Positions 11,889-18,911 of a stretch of 33,479 bases of DNA are shown piece by piece. The position numbers and the translations under genes were made by a program. Under the pieces are notes generated by a model. That model saw only the letters and a list, made by a program, of their open reading frames with translations, was not told the DNA's origin and did no database searches. Source of the stretch: Ruminiclostridium sp. (GTDB lineage Bacteria > Bacillota > Clostridia > Oscillospirales > Ruminococcaceae). Each line of letters begins with the position of its first letter. Within the stretch, counting starts at the first letter, position 1. The DNA lies in the NCBI GenBank assembly GCA_017479645.1, contig JAFVBZ010000042.1:1-33479 (forward strand), read 5' to 3'.

Positions 11889-13925
11889 TTACTGCTTTCT
11901 GCGGCTGTTCAGTGAACGGATTATATACCGCCCGCACAGCTCGCTGCTTCTTCCGATATTGTAAACATGATCCTTGAATACTTCCTCGATGCGCTCGGCG
12001 TACTCCGCCTTTGCCGCGATCATTTCCGCTGCCGTTTCAGGTACGCGGTCAAGCTCGTCAAGCCCGATCACCTTTCCTATCTGGGTGCGCAGCGACTTAT
12101 TAATCGGCTCGATCTCAAGCTTAGTATATTCCAGGTTCATCACCTTCATCGGAGTGTCGATATACAAAACCGGACGTTTTGTGACGAACGCGTACTCCCA
12201 GGCAATATCAGACCAGTCGGTTATAAGAAGATCGGAGTCCATTACCGGATTGTTCTGCGAAAAATCGGTCTGTATCTCCACCATTTTCTCTGCGGCATAC
12301 TTTTCTTTCAGTGCAGTGAAACGCTCCGGCTCATGGCGCACATGCTGGGGGTGGGGGCGGAGGATTATCCTGTAACCGGTCTTTGTGAGCTCGTCGATGA
12401 GCTTTTCGGCGCACAGCTCCACGATGTTGTCCGCCTGCCAGGAGGGAGCGATTATTATCTGCGGCGGATCGTTCACCTTGTGCTCGGAGCTTTCGTATTT
12501 CTTAAGCATTTCGTCTATCAGCGGATATCCGGATTCAACGATCCGCTTTTCCGGAGTACCGAAGATGCGCTCACTTGCGCGGATCTCCTCATGCTGATCC
12601 CTTCCGGGGCAGAATATGGTGTTGAAGTAGTCAAGAGCGCCTTTGCGGTATGTAATGATACTTCCCATTCCGTGGCACGCAAAGACGTATTCGATATCGC
12701 TGCGGACGCGGGAACGCTTTATGTGGTACTTTTCGAGATCCGGCATGGTCATCACGCACATATCGCAGTCCAGCTTCATGAACAGCGGGACAAGATATCT
12801 GTCGCTTGCAGCGTAATACGGCACTATCTGCTCACGCTTGTCGGAGAAGATCTTATCTTCCGGATCGCTGGTGACATAGTGTATCGTAATATCGGAATGA
12901 TCGCAGATGTAGTCTATCATTCCGGAATAGTACTTGTAGAAGCCGTTCTGCTCGGAATAGAACACGAGCTGTTTGTTCTCCGCGACCGAAAAGCGCTTAT
13001 AATCCGCGGCTTCGCGCTTGCGGTACTTTGCAAAGACCTGCTCCTTTGCACGCTTTTCTTCCCTGGTGCGCATGAGCTTGTCGTAATCGACATACTTTTT
13101 CGGCGGTATCACAAGATTCGTGACCCACATAAGCGGTATGGCGAAGAGGTTTCCGAAGATCCAGTAAAGTCCTACTCCGCCGGGAACTATAAAGGCGAAA
13201 TATACCGAGAATGCAACCATAAACACGGTGGTCAGCACCTTGTTCAGCATTCCCTGTGCAAGCTGGAGCACATTTATCCGGTTCTGCGCAAAGCACAGAA
13301 GCCATGCGCTGAGTCCTGCGGCAAGCGGTATTATCAGAGTTACCGGCTCGGCAAAGTTCGGTACCGCGCCGAGATCAAGTCCGAGAAAGCTCATATCGAA
13401 GGAGCCGATACGGCTTATGATATCCGCCGGGAAACCGCTTACAGGAAAGCTTCCCGCCCTGATAAGCTCCATTATCTTCAGCTCGTAAAGGCTTCCGGCA
13501 TCGTTTATGCCGAGAGTATTGACAAGAACGTCCTGCATAGAGGATATGACGCCTCTGTCCATTCCGAGCATGAAGCTGAGCGGGCGGTAAACTACGCCGA
13601 CAAGTCCCAGAACGATCGGAATCTGGAGAAGCAGCGGGACGGTATCGAGGAACGGGTTATACTTGTATTCCTTGTAAAGCGCAAGCTGTTCGTCGGTGTA
13701 CTTATCCTTGTCGTCGATATACTTTATCTTGAGTTCGTTGAGTTTCGGCTGGAGCCGGACCATGCGTATCGAGTTCTTCTGCGTCATTATGCTCAGCGGA
13801 AAGAGCAGGAACTTTGTCAGAAGAGTGAACAGGATTATGCTTATGCCGCAGCTTCCGCATATCGCAAAGCAGAACTGCATTACATAGCCCAGTATGCCGA
13901 TCAGAAAATCTATTACCTGTTCCAT
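11889..13925 (-). CDS. YidC/Oxa1 membrane insertase fused to a TagF-like CDP-glycerol glycerophosphotransferase
   Basis: 678 residues in one uninterrupted frame. Residues 1-275 are a YidC/Oxa1 domain. It has a first helix around 25-46 with LLTKFLLFPL, a cytoplasmic hairpin 48-95 (KNSIRMVRLQPKLNELKIKY), NPFLDTVPLLLQIPIVLGL at 90-108, and the last helices with GLYWIFGNLFAIPLMWVTN at 252-270. A charged linker covers about 276-310. Residues 311-675 resemble the catalytic domain of teichoic-acid polymerases: CHGMGS (H418), SGYPLIDEM (465-473), APSWQADNIVE, RPHPQH (H525) and SDLLITDWSDIAWEYAF (564-580). The expected role is insertion of membrane proteins coupled to, or repurposed for, glycerol-phosphate or similar polymer synthesis at the inner membrane face (inference). 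It begins 2 bases after a small membrane protein gene. The insertase groove arginine is replaced by K37. Confidence 0.88.
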   Translation of the reverse strand: MEQVIDFLIGILGYVMQFCFAICGSCGISIILFTLLTKFLLFPLSIMTQKNSIRMVRLQPKLNELKIKYIDDKDKYTDEQLALYKEYKYNPFLDTVPLLLQIPIVLGLVGVVYRPLSFMLGMDRGVISSMQDVLVNTLGINDAGSLYELKIMELIRAGSFPVSGFPADIISRIGSFDMSFLGLDLGAVPNFAEPVTLIIPLAAGLSAWLLCFAQNRINVLQLAQGMLNKVLTTVFMVAFSVYFAFIVPGGVGLYWIFGNLFAIPLMWVTNLVIPPKKYVDYDKLMRTREEKRAKEQVFAKYRKREAADYKRFSVAENKQLVFYSEQNGFYKYYSGMIDYICDHSDITIHYVTSDPEDKIFSDKREQIVPYYAASDRYLVPLFMKLDCDMCVMTMPDLEKYHIKRSRVRSDIEYVFACHGMGSIITYRKGALDYFNTIFCPGRDQHEEIRASERIFGTPEKRIVESGYPLIDEMLKKYESSEHKVNDPPQIIIAPSWQADNIVELCAEKLIDELTKTGYRIILRPHPQHVRHEPERFTALKEKYAAEKMVEIQTDFSQNNPVMDSDLLITDWSDIAWEYAFVTKRPVLYIDTPMKVMNLEYTKLEIEPINKSLRTQIGKVIGLDELDRVPETAAEMIAAKAEYAERIEEVFKDHVYNIGRSSELCGRYIIRSLNSRRKQ

Positions 13926-13927
13926 TT

Positions 13928-14239
13928 TTACTTATCGGCTTCTTCGTCGTCGGAAAGCAGATCGTCCGCAGTGACTACGCCGCCGTGCTCGCCGTCGTTT
14001 GATATCGTGACAGGTGCATCTGCATTCTCATCTTCGGACTTTTTCTTCACCTTTCTCTTAAGCTTGTTGAAGATGATGCCGGCAGCGGTACCGCAGGCAA
14101 TAACGACTCCCACCACTATCTGTATGATATAGCTCGTTGTGGCGGGATCTATGTACGCAGACGCGTTCACCGCAAGCAGCAGTGAGAAGCAGCAGGCGTA
14201 AAATGCGGCGCCGGCAAGTTTAGCGGGATTTATTTTCAT
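13928..14239 (-). CDS. Small membrane protein with YIDPATTSYIIQ motif
   Basis: 103 residues. A hydrophobic N-terminal segment (about 8-28) ending VNASA looks like a signal peptide or first helix. The motif YIDPATTSYIIQ (29-40) follows, then a second helix (about 39-57), a basic stretch FNKLKRKVKKK and an acidic tail ending DDEEADK. I recall similar YIDP-motif small proteins near envelope polysaccharide genes in Clostridia, but have no assigned function for them. It is 2 bases from the YidC-TagF fusion, so the two are almost surely made together and may interact. The start has AAGGAAC upstream and a strong promoter. Confidence 0.85.
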   Translation of the reverse strand: MKINPAKLAGAAFYACCFSLLLAVNASAYIDPATTSYIIQIVVGVVIACGTAAGIIFNKLKRKVKKKSEDENADAPVTISNDGEHGGVVTADDLLSDDEEADK

Positions 14240-14459: not shown

Positions 14460-17400
14460 ATGAAACAGGCACTTCATAAAAGCGCATTCAGAGAGATCCG
14501 TTCAACGATGAGCCGGTTTCTTTCAATATTCGGCATTGTTGCGATAGGAGTGGGCTTTTTCGCAGGCGTTAAAGCTGCTGCACCCGATATGCGCAAAACG
14601 CTGGACAGCTACTACAACGAAAAGCACCTTATGGATCTCCGCCTTGTTTCCACCTACGGTTTTGATGAAAATGACATAAACGCGCTGAAAGAGATACCGG
14701 GAGCTTCGGTCTATCCCTCCTACTACGTTGATGTGATCGCGGAATGCACCGGTAGGACTCCTGCAGCGGCAAGAATATACTCCATTTCCGACACGCTTGT
14801 AAACGAGATAAACGTATTGGAGATCACAGAAGGAAGAATGCCGGAGAACGAGCACGAGTGCCTTGTAAGTTCCGGCAAGCTTAACGGAGGACCGGCTGTC
14901 GGTCAGACTGTCACTATAACCGATAACAGCGGCAATCCGCCGGAGGATATGCTGAGCGTCTTTGAATACGAGATCGTCGGCAAGGTCATGTCCCCGATGT
15001 ACATTGACAAGACCAGCCGGGGAAGCACTTCCGTCGGCAACGGCTCAATAGAATCGGCTTACTATGTCCCGGAGGAAAATTTCACCGTAAAGTACAATAC
15101 CGAGGTATATCTGCGGTTCCCGGCACTCGATGAGTACAACTGCTACGAGTACGACTATAAGGAGCGCATACGCGAGATCACAGATGCGCTTGAACCTATT
15201 GCGGATACACGCTCGGAAGAGCGCTTTGTCGATATTAAGCAGGAAGCCGACGAAGAACTGAAAAAGGCTGAAAACAAGCTTTCCGACGCGGAAAAGGAAG
15301 CCGACGAGAAGATCGCCGACGGAGAAAGAGAACTTGACGATGCAAGGAAAAAGCTTAGCGACGCAAAGCAGGAGATCGACGACGGCGAACGCGAGATAAG
15401 CGAGAATGAGCAGAAGCTTGCCGACGGCAAGGAGGAGCTTGAAAAAGCAAAAAGCGATATTGCGGACGGCGAAAAGGAGATCGCGGAGAATGAACGCAAG
15501 CTTCAGGACGGAAAAGATGAGCTTGCAAAGGCAAGAAAAGAAATTGAGGACGGCGAAAAAGAGATCGCCGAAAATGATGAAAAGCTGAAAGACGCAGAAA
15601 AACAGCTTGATGACGCCAAAAAGGAGCTTGATGACGGAGAGCGCCAGATCGCCGAAAACGAGAAGAAGCTTGCCGACGGAAAAGCAGAGCTTGAAAAGGG
15701 CAAAAAAGAGCTTGAGGACAATGAAAAGCTTATCGCCGAAAATGAGAAGAAGCTTGCGGACGGAAAAAAAGATCTCGAAAACGGCAAAAAGGAGCTTGAA
15801 AAGGGCGAGAAGGAGATCGCTGAGAATGAGAAGAAGCTTAAAGACGGAAAATATGAGCTCGATAAAGCCAAAAGACAGATAGAAGAGGGCGAACAAAAGC
15901 TAAAAGACAGCGAAAAACTGCTGAAAGAAAGCAAGCAGAAGCTCGATAACGCAAAAGCTCAGCTCGATTACGGTCAGAGCCAGATAAGAGCAAACGAGAA
16001 GATGCTTGAAGACGGAAAGAAACAGCTTGAAACTGCCAAAAAGCAGATAGAGGACGGCGAAAAGGAGATCGCCGAAAACGAACAGCTTCTCGCCGACAGC
16101 AAGAAGCAGCTTGATGACGCACAAAGCCGGATACAGACAGGTGAAACTGCGATAAATTACCTGAACGGTCTTGTCGAAAAGGGCGAAGCCGCTCTCGACA
16201 AGCTCGAAGAGCTTCTGGAAAATGAAGAGGACCCGTCTTCGGAAAACAGGGAATATCTTAAAGAAAAGATCGCCGAAGCCAGACAGCAGCTCGCCGGTTA
16301 CAAGGAAAGACTTGCCGAAGAACAGGCTAAACTTGACGACGGAAAGGCACAATACGAAGAAGGTCTTGCACAGTACAATGCCGGAGTCGCACTGCTTGAA
16401 GCCGGCAAGGATGAACTGAGCAAGGCAAAAGCCGACTACGAAAAGGGCGTAAAGGATATCGAAAACGGCGAAAAACAGCTTGCCGACGCGAAAAAGCAGC
16501 TTGAAGACGGAAAGGCTGAATACGAAGCCGGTCTGATGCAGTACCTTGTAGGCGAGAACGAGTACAATAACGGCAAGACCGAGCTTTCCCTCGCAAAGCT
16601 CCAGTATGAAGCCGGTCTCAAGGAATACAACGAAGGTGCCGCACAGCTTGACAAAGCCAAAGAACAGCTTGAAGACGGCTGGGACGAATACAACGACGGC
16701 TTAAAAGAGATCGAGGACAGCGAAAAGCAGCTTGCCGAGGGTAAGGAACAGCTTTCGGACGGCTGGGATAAGTACAACGACGGCTTAAAAGAGATCGAGG
16801 ACGGCGAAAAGCAGCTCAAAGATGCAAAAGACAAGTACGAGGACGGAAAAGCCGAATATGAGAAAGGGCTTTCGGAATACAACGACGGAAAGAAACAGCT
16901 TGATGACGCGAAAGAACAGCTGAATGACGGCAAAGCCGAGTATGAAAAGGGTATGAACGAGCTCTTTGACGGTGAACGCCAGATAACGGACGCGAAGATA
17001 TCACTTGCGGACGGAAAAGCCGAGTATGCAAACGGACTGATAGATGTTTACGACGGTGAAAAGCAGCTGAACGACGCGAAAGAACAGCTTGCGGACGGTA
17101 AAGCCGAATATGAGGAAGGTCTGCAGAAGCTTGCGGACGGCGAAAAGGAACTCGAAGACGGCAAAGCCGAAGCAAGAGAGAAGATAGATGACGCAAAGCA
17201 GAAGCTTGCCGACGCAAAGGAAGAAGCCGAGAACCTTGACAAGCCGAAATGGTTCATCTTCTCGCGCACCGACAATCCCGGCTACTCCGAATACGGCGAG
17301 AACTCCGAAAGGATCAACAACATATCAAGCGTCTTTCCCGTATTCTTCATAATCGTGGCAATACTCGTCTGCCTCACAACGATGTCGAGAATGATCGAGG

Positions 17401-18911
17401 AGCAGAGAGTGCAGATAGGCACGCTGAAAGCGCTCGGCTACTCCGACGGCGATATCATGTTCAAGTATATGTTCTATGCCGTTTCCGCAACGGTAACAGG
17501 CTCGATAGCCGGCTGTCTTGTGGGAATGTTCCTGTTCCCGTATGCTATTATCACGGCTTACGGAATGCTGTATGACATTCCGAGACCGATAATTGAGCTT
17601 GATCCCGTAACAGGGCTTTTATCGACATTCATTTTTGCGGGCGCGATATCGGCTACGGTGATCTACACCGCCCACAGCTCGCTTAAAGAGGAAGCTGCCC
17701 AGCTGATGCGCCCGAAAACTCCGAAAACAGGAAAGCGGATACTGCTCGAACACATTCCGATCATCTGGAACAGGTTCAATTTCAGCGCAAAAGTTACTGC
17801 GCGCAATCTCTTTCGCTACAAGCAGAAGATGCTTATGACGGTGATAGGCATATCCGGCTGCACGGCTCTTTTGGTGACAGGATTTGCGCTTCACGACAGC
17901 ATAAACGATGTAGTCTCGAAGCAGTATGTTGATATCCTGCATTACGACGGCTCGGTGATATATGATGCGGATAAGCACCCGGAATCCGCAGATGCGGCGG
18001 AGAAGATACTTTCCGGATACGGCGATAATCTGCGGGTATATCAGAAAATGCTCACGGCAAGCGCAAACGGCAAAAATGTTGATATATGTATAGTTGTGCC
18101 GACGGATCCGGAGCTTTTCACACAGTTCAATCTCCTTCGCGACCGCCGTTCCGGCAAAGAATACACACTCGCTGACGGTGATATCTACATAGACGAGAAA
18201 TCCGCGCTGCTGCTGGGCAATGTCGGTCCCGGCGACAGCATAGAGATATTGCTGTCCGACACGGAGAAGCGCAGGGTGAAGCTCACCGCGCATTTCGAGA
18301 ACTACCCCGGTCACTATGTTTTCATGACAGAAAAGACGTACAGGAATATATTTGAAGAGGAGCCGAAGTACAACTCGATATTCTTCCGGCATAATATTGA
18401 AACGGAGCAGGAAGATGGTCTTGCGCGCCGGCTGCTGAATATAGACGGAATACTGAATGTAAAGTTCAATTCGGGAACCGAGGAATCTTTTGCAAGCATT
18501 CTCAGACCGCTGAATTACGTTATTGCGGTTATAATCGCATCTGCGGGACTTCTCGCATTCGTGGTAATGTACAATCTCACGAATATCAACATAACGGAGC
18601 GCATCAGAGAGATAGCGACGCTGAAAGTTCTCGGATTCTATGACGGAGAAGTTGACAGCTACATCTTCCGCGAGAATATACTCTTATCTCTTCTCGGCAC
18701 AGGAGTAGGGCTTATACTCGGCATCTTCCTCGCCAATTTCGTCATAGTTACGGCTGAAGTCGATCTCGTAATGTTCGGCAGAGAGATCTACCCGATGAGC
18801 TTCATTCTCGCCGCCGCAGTCACCATGCTCTTCTCGCTGCTCGTAACCGTCGCAATGCACAGCAGACTGAAGAAGGTAAATATGATCGAAGCGCTGAAGT
18901 CTGTGGAGTAG
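14460..18911 (+). CDS. Giant FtsX-family ABC permease with long heptad-repeat stalk
   Basis: 1483 residues. A first helix lies near 16-36 after RSTMSRFLSIFGIVAIG, followed by an extracytoplasmic MacB-like region to about 250. Residues 257-924 are unbroken heptads of the form xxx(L/I)xx(G/N/A/S), for example KKLADGK and EKEIAEN, which should form a long helical stalk outside the cell. The first FtsX domain follows at about 953-1080 (EEQRVQIGTLKALGYSDGDI). A linking region with another helix near 1123 comes next, then the second FtsX domain at 1350-1480 (ERIREIATLKVLGFYDGE, ending in MIEALKSVE). The ribosome site is AAAGGAGA. An ABC ATPase gene would be expected beside it, but none is present in the window. 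Possible roles are envelope stress, peptide or lipid handling, or cell-wall hydrolase control (inference). Confidence 0.92.
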   Translation: MKQALHKSAFREIRSTMSRFLSIFGIVAIGVGFFAGVKAAAPDMRKTLDSYYNEKHLMDLRLVSTYGFDENDINALKEIPGASVYPSYYVDVIAECTGRTPAAARIYSISDTLVNEINVLEITEGRMPENEHECLVSSGKLNGGPAVGQTVTITDNSGNPPEDMLSVFEYEIVGKVMSPMYIDKTSRGSTSVGNGSIESAYYVPEENFTVKYNTEVYLRFPALDEYNCYEYDYKERIREITDALEPIADTRSEERFVDIKQEADEELKKAENKLSDAEKEADEKIADGERELDDARKKLSDAKQEIDDGEREISENEQKLADGKEELEKAKSDIADGEKEIAENERKLQDGKDELAKARKEIEDGEKEIAENDEKLKDAEKQLDDAKKELDDGERQIAENEKKLADGKAELEKGKKELEDNEKLIAENEKKLADGKKDLENGKKELEKGEKEIAENEKKLKDGKYELDKAKRQIEEGEQKLKDSEKLLKESKQKLDNAKAQLDYGQSQIRANEKMLEDGKKQLETAKKQIEDGEKEIAENEQLLADSKKQLDDAQSRIQTGETAINYLNGLVEKGEAALDKLEELLENEEDPSSENREYLKEKIAEARQQLAGYKERLAEEQAKLDDGKAQYEEGLAQYNAGVALLEAGKDELSKAKADYEKGVKDIENGEKQLADAKKQLEDGKAEYEAGLMQYLVGENEYNNGKTELSLAKLQYEAGLKEYNEGAAQLDKAKEQLEDGWDEYNDGLKEIEDSEKQLAEGKEQLSDGWDKYNDGLKEIEDGEKQLKDAKDKYEDGKAEYEKGLSEYNDGKKQLDDAKEQLNDGKAEYEKGMNELFDGERQITDAKISLADGKAEYANGLIDVYDGEKQLNDAKEQLADGKAEYEEGLQKLADGEKELEDGKAEAREKIDDAKQKLADAKEEAENLDKPKWFIFSRTDNPGYSEYGENSERINNISSVFPVFFIIVAILVCLTTMSRMIEEQRVQIGTLKALGYSDGDIMFKYMFYAVSATVTGSIAGCLVGMFLFPYAIITAYGMLYDIPRPIIELDPVTGLLSTFIFAGAISATVIYTAHSSLKEEAAQLMRPKTPKTGKRILLEHIPIIWNRFNFSAKVTARNLFRYKQKMLMTVIGISGCTALLVTGFALHDSINDVVSKQYVDILHYDGSVIYDADKHPESADAAEKILSGYGDNLRVYQKMLTASANGKNVDICIVVPTDPELFTQFNLLRDRRSGKEYTLADGDIYIDEKSALLLGNVGPGDSIEILLSDTEKRRVKLTAHFENYPGHYVFMTEKTYRNIFEEEPKYNSIFFRHNIETEQEDGLARRLLNIDGILNVKFNSGTEESFASILRPLNYVIAVIIASAGLLAFVVMYNLTNINITERIREIATLKVLGFYDGEVDSYIFRENILLSLLGTGVGLILGIFLANFVIVTAEVDLVMFGREIYPMSFILAAAVTMLFSLLVTVAMHSRLKKVNMIEALKSVE
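16674..16841 (+). repeat. 84-bp tandem duplication inside the heptad stalk
   Basis: Two near-identical copies begin GACGGCTGGGA at 16674 and 16758, a period of 84 bases or four heptads. Both contain TACAACGACGGCTTAAAAGA. The low divergence indicates a recent expansion of the stalk. Confidence 0.8.

Follow-up and report, generated by a model that had tools for sequence, protein, structure and literature searches.

The window, that is, the whole 33,479-nucleotide stretch of Ruminiclostridium sp. DNA that was analysed (contig JAFVBZ010000042.1), carries on its minus strand a gene, P0001, whose product joins a YidC core to a TagF-like phosphotransferase half (Table 1). The original prediction had placed both domains in one 678-residue frame, and this is confirmed by Pfam, an AF2 model and Foldseek. 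Both Pfam families score above cut-off in P0001: residues 27-270 match 60KD_IMP (PF02096; 118.3 bits against a curated cut-off of 35), and Glyphos_transf (PF04464) is matched partially, over profile positions 146-291 of 367 (51.5 bits against 22.1). The predicted structure shows the YidC fold with a cytosolic helical hairpin, for which Foldseek returns 3wo7 (TM-score 0.71 on target length for the YidC core) and 6al2. The catalytic half has the GT-B fold of TagF, its top structural match; by profile, Cps3D and TarL are its only clear solved relatives. Its residues His418 and His525 are invariant in alignments A1 and A2.

The stop codon of a small gene, YIDP (P0002), lies two bases before the ATG of the fusion. 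P0002 has a signal-like N-terminus, a YIDPATT motif, one hydrophobic segment, a basic stop and an acidic tail; no Pfam or NCBIfam model scores above cut-off on it. The YIDPATT-type motif is conserved in YIDP proteins, and the acidic tail carries TADDLL in the window's branch. YIDP proteins often open with a signal-like segment that stops before YIDPATT. A signal peptidase type gene lies beside YIDP at L057:7539-8111 (Pfam Peptidase_S26, E=6e-38), and the gene beside YIDP at L059:6626-7144 belongs to the same BLAST cluster.

Table 1. Coordinates of the fusion gene, its parts and the neighbouring YIDP gene in the window
Feature	Position	Strand	Basis
YidC-TagF-like fusion gene P0001, 678 aa	11889..13925	-	sequence, Pfam, AF2, Foldseek
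YidC core, residues 1-280: N-terminal helix, cytosolic hairpin, transmembrane core	13086..13925	-	Pfam, AF2, Foldseek
Lys38 codon, positively charged residue of groove	13812..13814	-	alignment column counts
Charged helical linker, residues 281-315, cytosol expected	12981..13085	-	sequence; helices in AF2 model
TagF-like GT-B phosphotransferase half, residues 316-678	11892..12980	-	Pfam, alignments, Foldseek
YIDP P0002, 103 aa, acidic tail VVTADDLLSDDEE	13928..14239	-	sequence features

The fusion recurs. Its frame is unbroken in the window, in 17 named records, one of which is cut, and at 13 other loci; pairwise identity among these 31 proteins never exceeds 90%. The 17 relatives from the species-genome scan share 53-73% identity with the window's protein; 16 are near full-length, and L011 begins at a contig edge. 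When the window and these 16 relatives are aligned, mean pairwise identity is 62% over residues 1-280 and 66% over residues 311-675. Within the YidC core, the same 17 rows reach 75% over residues 27-118, 72% over residues 191-280 and 39% in the outer loop. One member, at L104:6556-8964, is 802 aa long, with an N-terminus about 130 residues longer.

In the family survey, 10 of 148 genomes bear the YidC-TagF fusion, a firm count with all ten matches at E<=1e-156; at least three further family genomes carry a TagF-like half that lacks YidC, in a match list that ends at about E=1.5e-32. The fusion is missing from two other members of the window's genus in this survey, G015 and G132. In the class survey, the TagF-like profile has matches at E<=1e-3 in 70 of 391 genomes; most are weak generic relatives, and 14 of these genomes, the window's included, match strongly (E<1e-90). 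The phylum survey gave matches at E<=1e-30 in 6 of 398 genomes, again including the window's. In the window's genome (3.31 Mb in 275 contigs, 96% complete), rnpA and yidD adjoin a separate yidC, the stand-alone copy for which the original prediction had proposed a search, and the only Glyphos_transf match is the fusion itself.

Of the 148 family genomes, the 10 with the YidC-TagF fusion are also the ones in which free YIDP is found (E<=1e-6); the other 138 gave no match. Nine of the ten genomes supplied rows to the YIDP query, so the informative parts of this result are the absence from the 138 and the match in G136. Within the family surveyed, YIDP is defined as a phyletic partner of the fusion. 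YIDP is found at 27 of the 31 YidC-TagF loci, 26 times as its own gene and once, at L105, fused to a sulfatase-type enzyme; the gap to the fusion is 64 bases or less in 20 of these 27 (the fused L105 being among the 27). No YIDP was seen in the stretch examined at the remaining four (L006, L008, L011, L017).

A fourth component, an LtaS/sulfatase-type transferase, joins the TagF-like transferase, YidC and YIDP in what can be described as a module. Its layouts were mapped with our own HMMs on 49 loci: the window, the 17 named-record loci and 31 stretches around survey matches. Layout A (30 loci) has [YidC-TagF], in most cases with a separate YIDP and/or sulfatase. Layout B (19 loci, several sharing a genome, from 14 genomes) has [YIDP-TagF] and [YidC-sulfatase]. 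Layout C (one locus, L105) has [YidC-TagF] and [YIDP-sulfatase]; here the YIDP-sulfatase fusion adjoins YidC-TagF at L105:3781-8180 and forms a third permutation. YidC sits on both enzymes at none of the mapped loci, and YidC-sulfatase occurs at 0 of the 31 YidC-TagF loci. Among the 18 loci whose TagF-like gene lacks YidC, YIDP is fused N-terminally to that gene in 17, the eighteenth (L055) lying at a contig end, and YidC-sulfatase is present in 17; at the locus without it, L119, two YidC-sulfatase genes lie on the following stretch of its contig (L122). With L133, from another class, where YIDP-TagF occurs with YidC-sulfatase (L137), the pairing extends to 19 of 19 B-type loci. Both types occur in genome G348, where an A locus and a B locus sit on separate contigs (L102, L103). 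The expected topology fits the module: TagF-like halves come after the C-terminus of YidC or the basic stop of YIDP.

Other searches agree with this mapping to differing degrees. Pfam places YidC and sulfatase in one chain in all eight chains scanned (L053, L054, L055, L107, L112, L118, L122, L137), with YidC above cut-off in eight and sulfatase in five; Sulfatase falls below cut-off in L055, L107 and L118 of layout B, as it does in L007, L020 and L059 of layout A. YidC together with Glyphos_transf is found by Pfam in L105, L061 and L104; in L064 Pfam shows YidC without Glyphos_transf, and the TagF-like half is recognized by our own profile only. A sulfatase-type gene is present at 20 of the 31 YidC-TagF loci by our own HMM (L105 counted in) and was not detected by it at the other 11 (the window, L006, L008, L009, L010, L011, L016, L017, L061, L062, L106). 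Of these HMM-negative loci, L061 has a sulfatase by Pfam and L062 by BLAST cluster only. A nucleotidyltransferase-type gene accompanies 14 of the 31 YidC-TagF loci (that of L102 being weak) and 6 of the 18 loci with a YidC-less TagF-like gene. The sulfatase, YIDP and nucleotidyltransferase HMMs were made from neighbours in the first locus set, where their matches arise by construction; those in L102-L120, L122 and L133-L137 do not. The YidC HMM includes rows from L102-L120, loci that an earlier YidC HMM, with some wrong-strand rows, had already detected. The cut L011 was left out of alignment A1 and both trees, and G837, a contig-edge fragment of the TagF-like half, out of the layout counts.

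At one locus of a different make-up (L134:2694-11724), PepM, Ppd, nucleotidyltransferase and PhnW-type genes are followed by an A-type TagF-like gene. Two sulfatase-family membrane proteins score above the Pfam cut-off there, and neither YidC nor YIDP was found across 13.5 kb, so not every such gene set depends on YidC.

The YidC cores of the two fusion types differ in the groove. The groove residue is Lys in all 30 YidC-TagF cores that have the position (31 aligned, L011 cut), including Lys38 of the window; ordinary YidC proteins have Lys (12) or Arg (9) in 21 of 21. It is uncharged in all 22 aligned YidC-sulfatase cores (17 Asn, 2 Gln, 2 Ser and 1 Thr), three later cores lying outside this alignment. 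The accessible part of one study describes the groove residue as strictly conserved, yet dispensable in some contexts, depending on a neighbouring residue (PMC8920935). Because of this context dependence, loss of insertase activity in layout B is not claimed. In a 73-row tree, the YidC-TagF cores form one clade (100/100) within ordinary YidC, with L033 as neighbour, a yidC that has Jag and TrmE genes downstream; the YidC-sulfatase cores form another clade (100/100) on a long separate branch. An AU test that forced both fused groups into one clade gave p=0.34, no rejection, so that one or two recruitments of YidC cores are both possible, and neither is claimed.

The partner enzyme keeps the residues that we take to be the catalytic Asp, the Thr/Ser nucleophile and the Asp-His metal ligands of a sulfatase-type enzyme. 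The Asp is present in 20/20 and 18/18 aligned rows, as are the Asp-His ligands, and the nucleophile position holds Thr in 18 and Ser in 2 of 20 rows in one set and Thr in 18/18 in the other. The nearest solved chain to the 20-row set without YidC is LtaS (2w5q, E=2.4e-12). The sulfatase half of a layout-B model lies near phosphonate monoester hydrolase, choline sulfatase, PbgA, EptC and LtaP among the matches listed; the YidC half of the layout-B protein was identified by Pfam and a profile search of solved chains. In the window the sulfatase is not adjacent, and three copies lie on other contigs of the genome. One of that genome's module-type sulfatases is located at L070:8281-10368 (contig C166), between FliI-type ATPase and FliJ genes (Pfam); this setting reads as a flagellar operon and may hint at flagellar modification.

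Neighbouring genes indicate which activated headgroups might be used. L007 encodes a LicC-type nucleotidyltransferase and a choline kinase domain in one chain, alongside a BCCT transporter. Phosphoenolpyruvate (PEP) mutase with cytidylyltransferase domains is found near the module at L058, L061, L111, L114 and L117, and at L133 and L134, PepM, Ppd and PhnW-type genes adjoin the TagF-like gene, above NCBIfam cut-offs. Of the 13 family genomes in which the module is known, 7 have PEP mutase above cut-off, compared with 8 of the remaining 135 (Fisher p=3e-5), a statistic that ignores kinship and in which the bearers number at least 13; among genomes >=90% complete and <=5% contaminated, the figures are 4 of 8 and 6 of 103 (p=0.002). 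LicD was absent from the sampled neighbours scanned. In its accessible text, one source gives a precedent for CMP-phosphonates (PMC6697681), and another, likewise seen in part, contrasts CDP-choline with phosphatidylcholine as the phosphocholine donor for surface modification (PMC10434233). In the window's genome, no PEP mutase was found at E<=1e-3, and the sole match to the LicC-choline kinase type (L007 as query) is a sugar-phosphate nucleotidyltransferase/phosphomannomutase-type chain. Glycerol-phosphate polymerase was considered and rejected for this genome, where the best TagD match in the 96%-complete assembly scores 20.6 bits against a cut-off of 165.4, although a TagD gene could still lie in the missing part; ribitol-phosphate polymerase was likewise rejected, the two IspD-profile matches being an IspDF bifunctional enzyme and a GlmU-like chain, neither of the TarI kind.

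The main finding is that YidC cores are common to inner and outer envelope transferases, a pattern wider than one fusion. That YidC is a dedicated part of the module is well supported and very probable. The original prediction had offered, as one option, an insertase repurposed as a membrane anchor or channel for polymer synthesis. This option gains strong support because YidC cores sit on either the presumed cytosolic-side or the presumed outer-side transferase within one module. The description as a teichoic-acid type glycerophosphotransferase is not supported: in the window's genome TagD is not above cut-off and the IspD matches are IspDF and GlmU-like, and the neighbours of related loci are of CMP-phosphonate/CDP-choline type. 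The other option of the original prediction, coupled insertion and modification of a membrane client, may still apply, with the small YIDP as a plausible client. Overall, the observation was real and unusual, and its interpretation partly right.

The fusion could quite possibly be the inner half of a transmembrane module that makes, moves and transfers a phosphodiester- or phosphonate-linked surface decoration. This proposal is built on the observed architecture, partner swap, co-occurrence, folds, catalytic residues and gene context. In a first step, the cytosolic TagF-like half, whose fold is seen and whose chemistry is proposed, would load a nucleotide-activated phospho-headgroup onto a membrane-bound acceptor; in relatives with such genes, the donor is probably CMP-2-aminoethylphosphonate or CDP-choline. 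In a second, the YidC core would serve as a scramblase or short conduit, its hydrophilic groove letting the loaded lipid pass across the bilayer, and YIDP would probably act together with it. In a third, the outer LtaS/sulfatase-type enzyme, recognizable by its fold and catalytic residues, would shift the headgroup to the final surface acceptor. The lipid-linked intermediate, the direction of passage, the scrambling and the nature of the acceptor are what the proposal would add to the observations.

Since the transferases are expected inside and outside the membrane and YidC sits alternately on either, the most economical interpretation is that YidC acts at the step that connects the two. To our knowledge, how headgroup-carrying lipids cross bacterial membranes for LtaS- or Ept-type enzymes is largely an open question. 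That YidC moves lipid here, rather than inserting protein or merely anchoring, is put forward as a hypothesis. The accessible part of a preprint reports that insertases including YidC scramble lipids in reconstitution and simulation, and raises as a new question whether lipid scrambling is a physiological task of insertases (PMC10491306). In its more specific and more tentative form, the proposal is that a branch of the YidC fold may be a dedicated translocator of a lipid-linked phospho- or phosphono-headgroup, in an assembly line with the TagF-like enzyme, the LtaS-like enzyme and YIDP. Evolution would then have made the reported scrambling activity of insertases a separate job.

It is somewhat unlikely that the YidC core is instead a dedicated insertase, which inserts or assembles YIDP or the many-helix sulfatase part, the fusion keeping insertase and client enzyme joined. 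YIDP resembles a single-span protein and is a plausible client: its gene stops just upstream of the fusion, and its free form occurs in the same 10 of 148 genomes. The A-type cores also branch within ordinary YidC and keep Lys38 in 30/30. However, layout B puts YidC and the client YIDP on different chains, a stand-alone yidC is already present in the window's genome, and the groove's positive residue is missing in all 22 aligned layout-B cores, although it can be dispensable according to the part of the source available (PMC8920935).

TagF-type enzymes are membrane associated, and a core that pairs with either of two enzymes could serve for docking. On this ground the YidC core might only keep the transferase at the membrane, docked to its partner and without transport; this is unlikely, since the core is conserved nearly like the catalytic half (62% against 66%), and YIDP gives the layout-B transferase a one-helix anchor, yet YidC is retained on the other enzyme. 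A TagF-type poly(glycerol or ribitol phosphate) polymerase with YidC as an incidental attachment is very unlikely. The structural match to TagF and the profile matches to Cps3D and TarL would fit such an enzyme, but the window's genome has neither TagD above cut-off nor a second IspD enzyme of the TarI kind, related loci have neighbouring genes for different activated headgroups, and the accessible text of one study already proposes a TagF-like enzyme, CD0244, outside polymer synthesis, for the Clostridioides difficile flagellin glycan with a non-glycerol headgroup (PMC10714395). An artefact of assembly or a missed stop, for which only the window's being one contig of a 275-contig assembly speaks, is regarded as refuted, as the same open frame stands across 31 loci with no two proteins above 90% identity.

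With known systems, the proposed module shares parts rather than the whole. Like YidC/Oxa1/Alb3 proteins (PF02096), its cores have the fold, hairpin and transmembrane core, and the YidC-TagF type has the groove's positive residue; unlike them, they carry a transferase presumed to work in the cytosol or outside, are additional to the normal yidC (in the window's genome) and, in the YidC-sulfatase type, lack the positive residue (22/22 aligned). The TagF-like enzyme differs from TagF/TarL/Cps3D (PF04464) in carrying YidC or YIDP at its N-terminus, in its 18% identity to TagF over the aligned part and in occurring, in the window's genome, without TagD above cut-off. The partner enzyme shares the catalytic Asp, Thr/Ser and Asp-His of LtaS/LtaP and phosphoethanolamine transferases (alkaline phosphatase superfamily) but is fused to a YidC core (layout B) or YIDP (layout C). 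LtaS-type enzymes are normally active without a fused YidC. With Lic-1 phosphocholine and Pnt phosphonate tailoring, some loci share CDP-choline/CMP-phosphonate type genes beside the module, whereas the module has a TagF-like and an LtaS-like enzyme with YidC, and the window's genome yielded none of these donor genes. The C. difficile CD0241-CD0244 system for the flagellin Type A glycan likewise combines a cytidylyltransferase with a TagF-like transferase, and a non-glycerol phospho-headgroup has been proposed for it; YidC or an outer transferase is not mentioned in the accessible part of that source (PMC10714395).

No account of YidC joined to a TagF- or LtaS-type enzyme was found in the titles and abstract beginnings of the open PMC literature. 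The pattern suggests that a YidC module was recruited to link both membrane sides of a surface-decoration pathway. If true, this would be a natural, genetically fixed tie of the insertase fold to surface-polymer enzymes on both membrane faces, and it would provide single-chain proteins in which headgroup-lipid crossing and insertase scrambling become testable.

The results also touch annotation: the label 'membrane protein insertase YidC' can cover a protein that belongs to a surface-decoration system. In the window, a 721-aa frame on the plus strand (11967-14132) is antisense to almost the entire fusion and a portion of YIDP. It was ruled out as coding, the domains and relatives sitting in the minus frame; it exceeds the true gene in length, so that a longest-frame gene caller would choose it. 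Farther along the plus strand (14460-18911), the window encodes a protein of 1483 aa which, judged from its sequence, looks like a permease whose membrane parts are separated by a very long charged repeat region.
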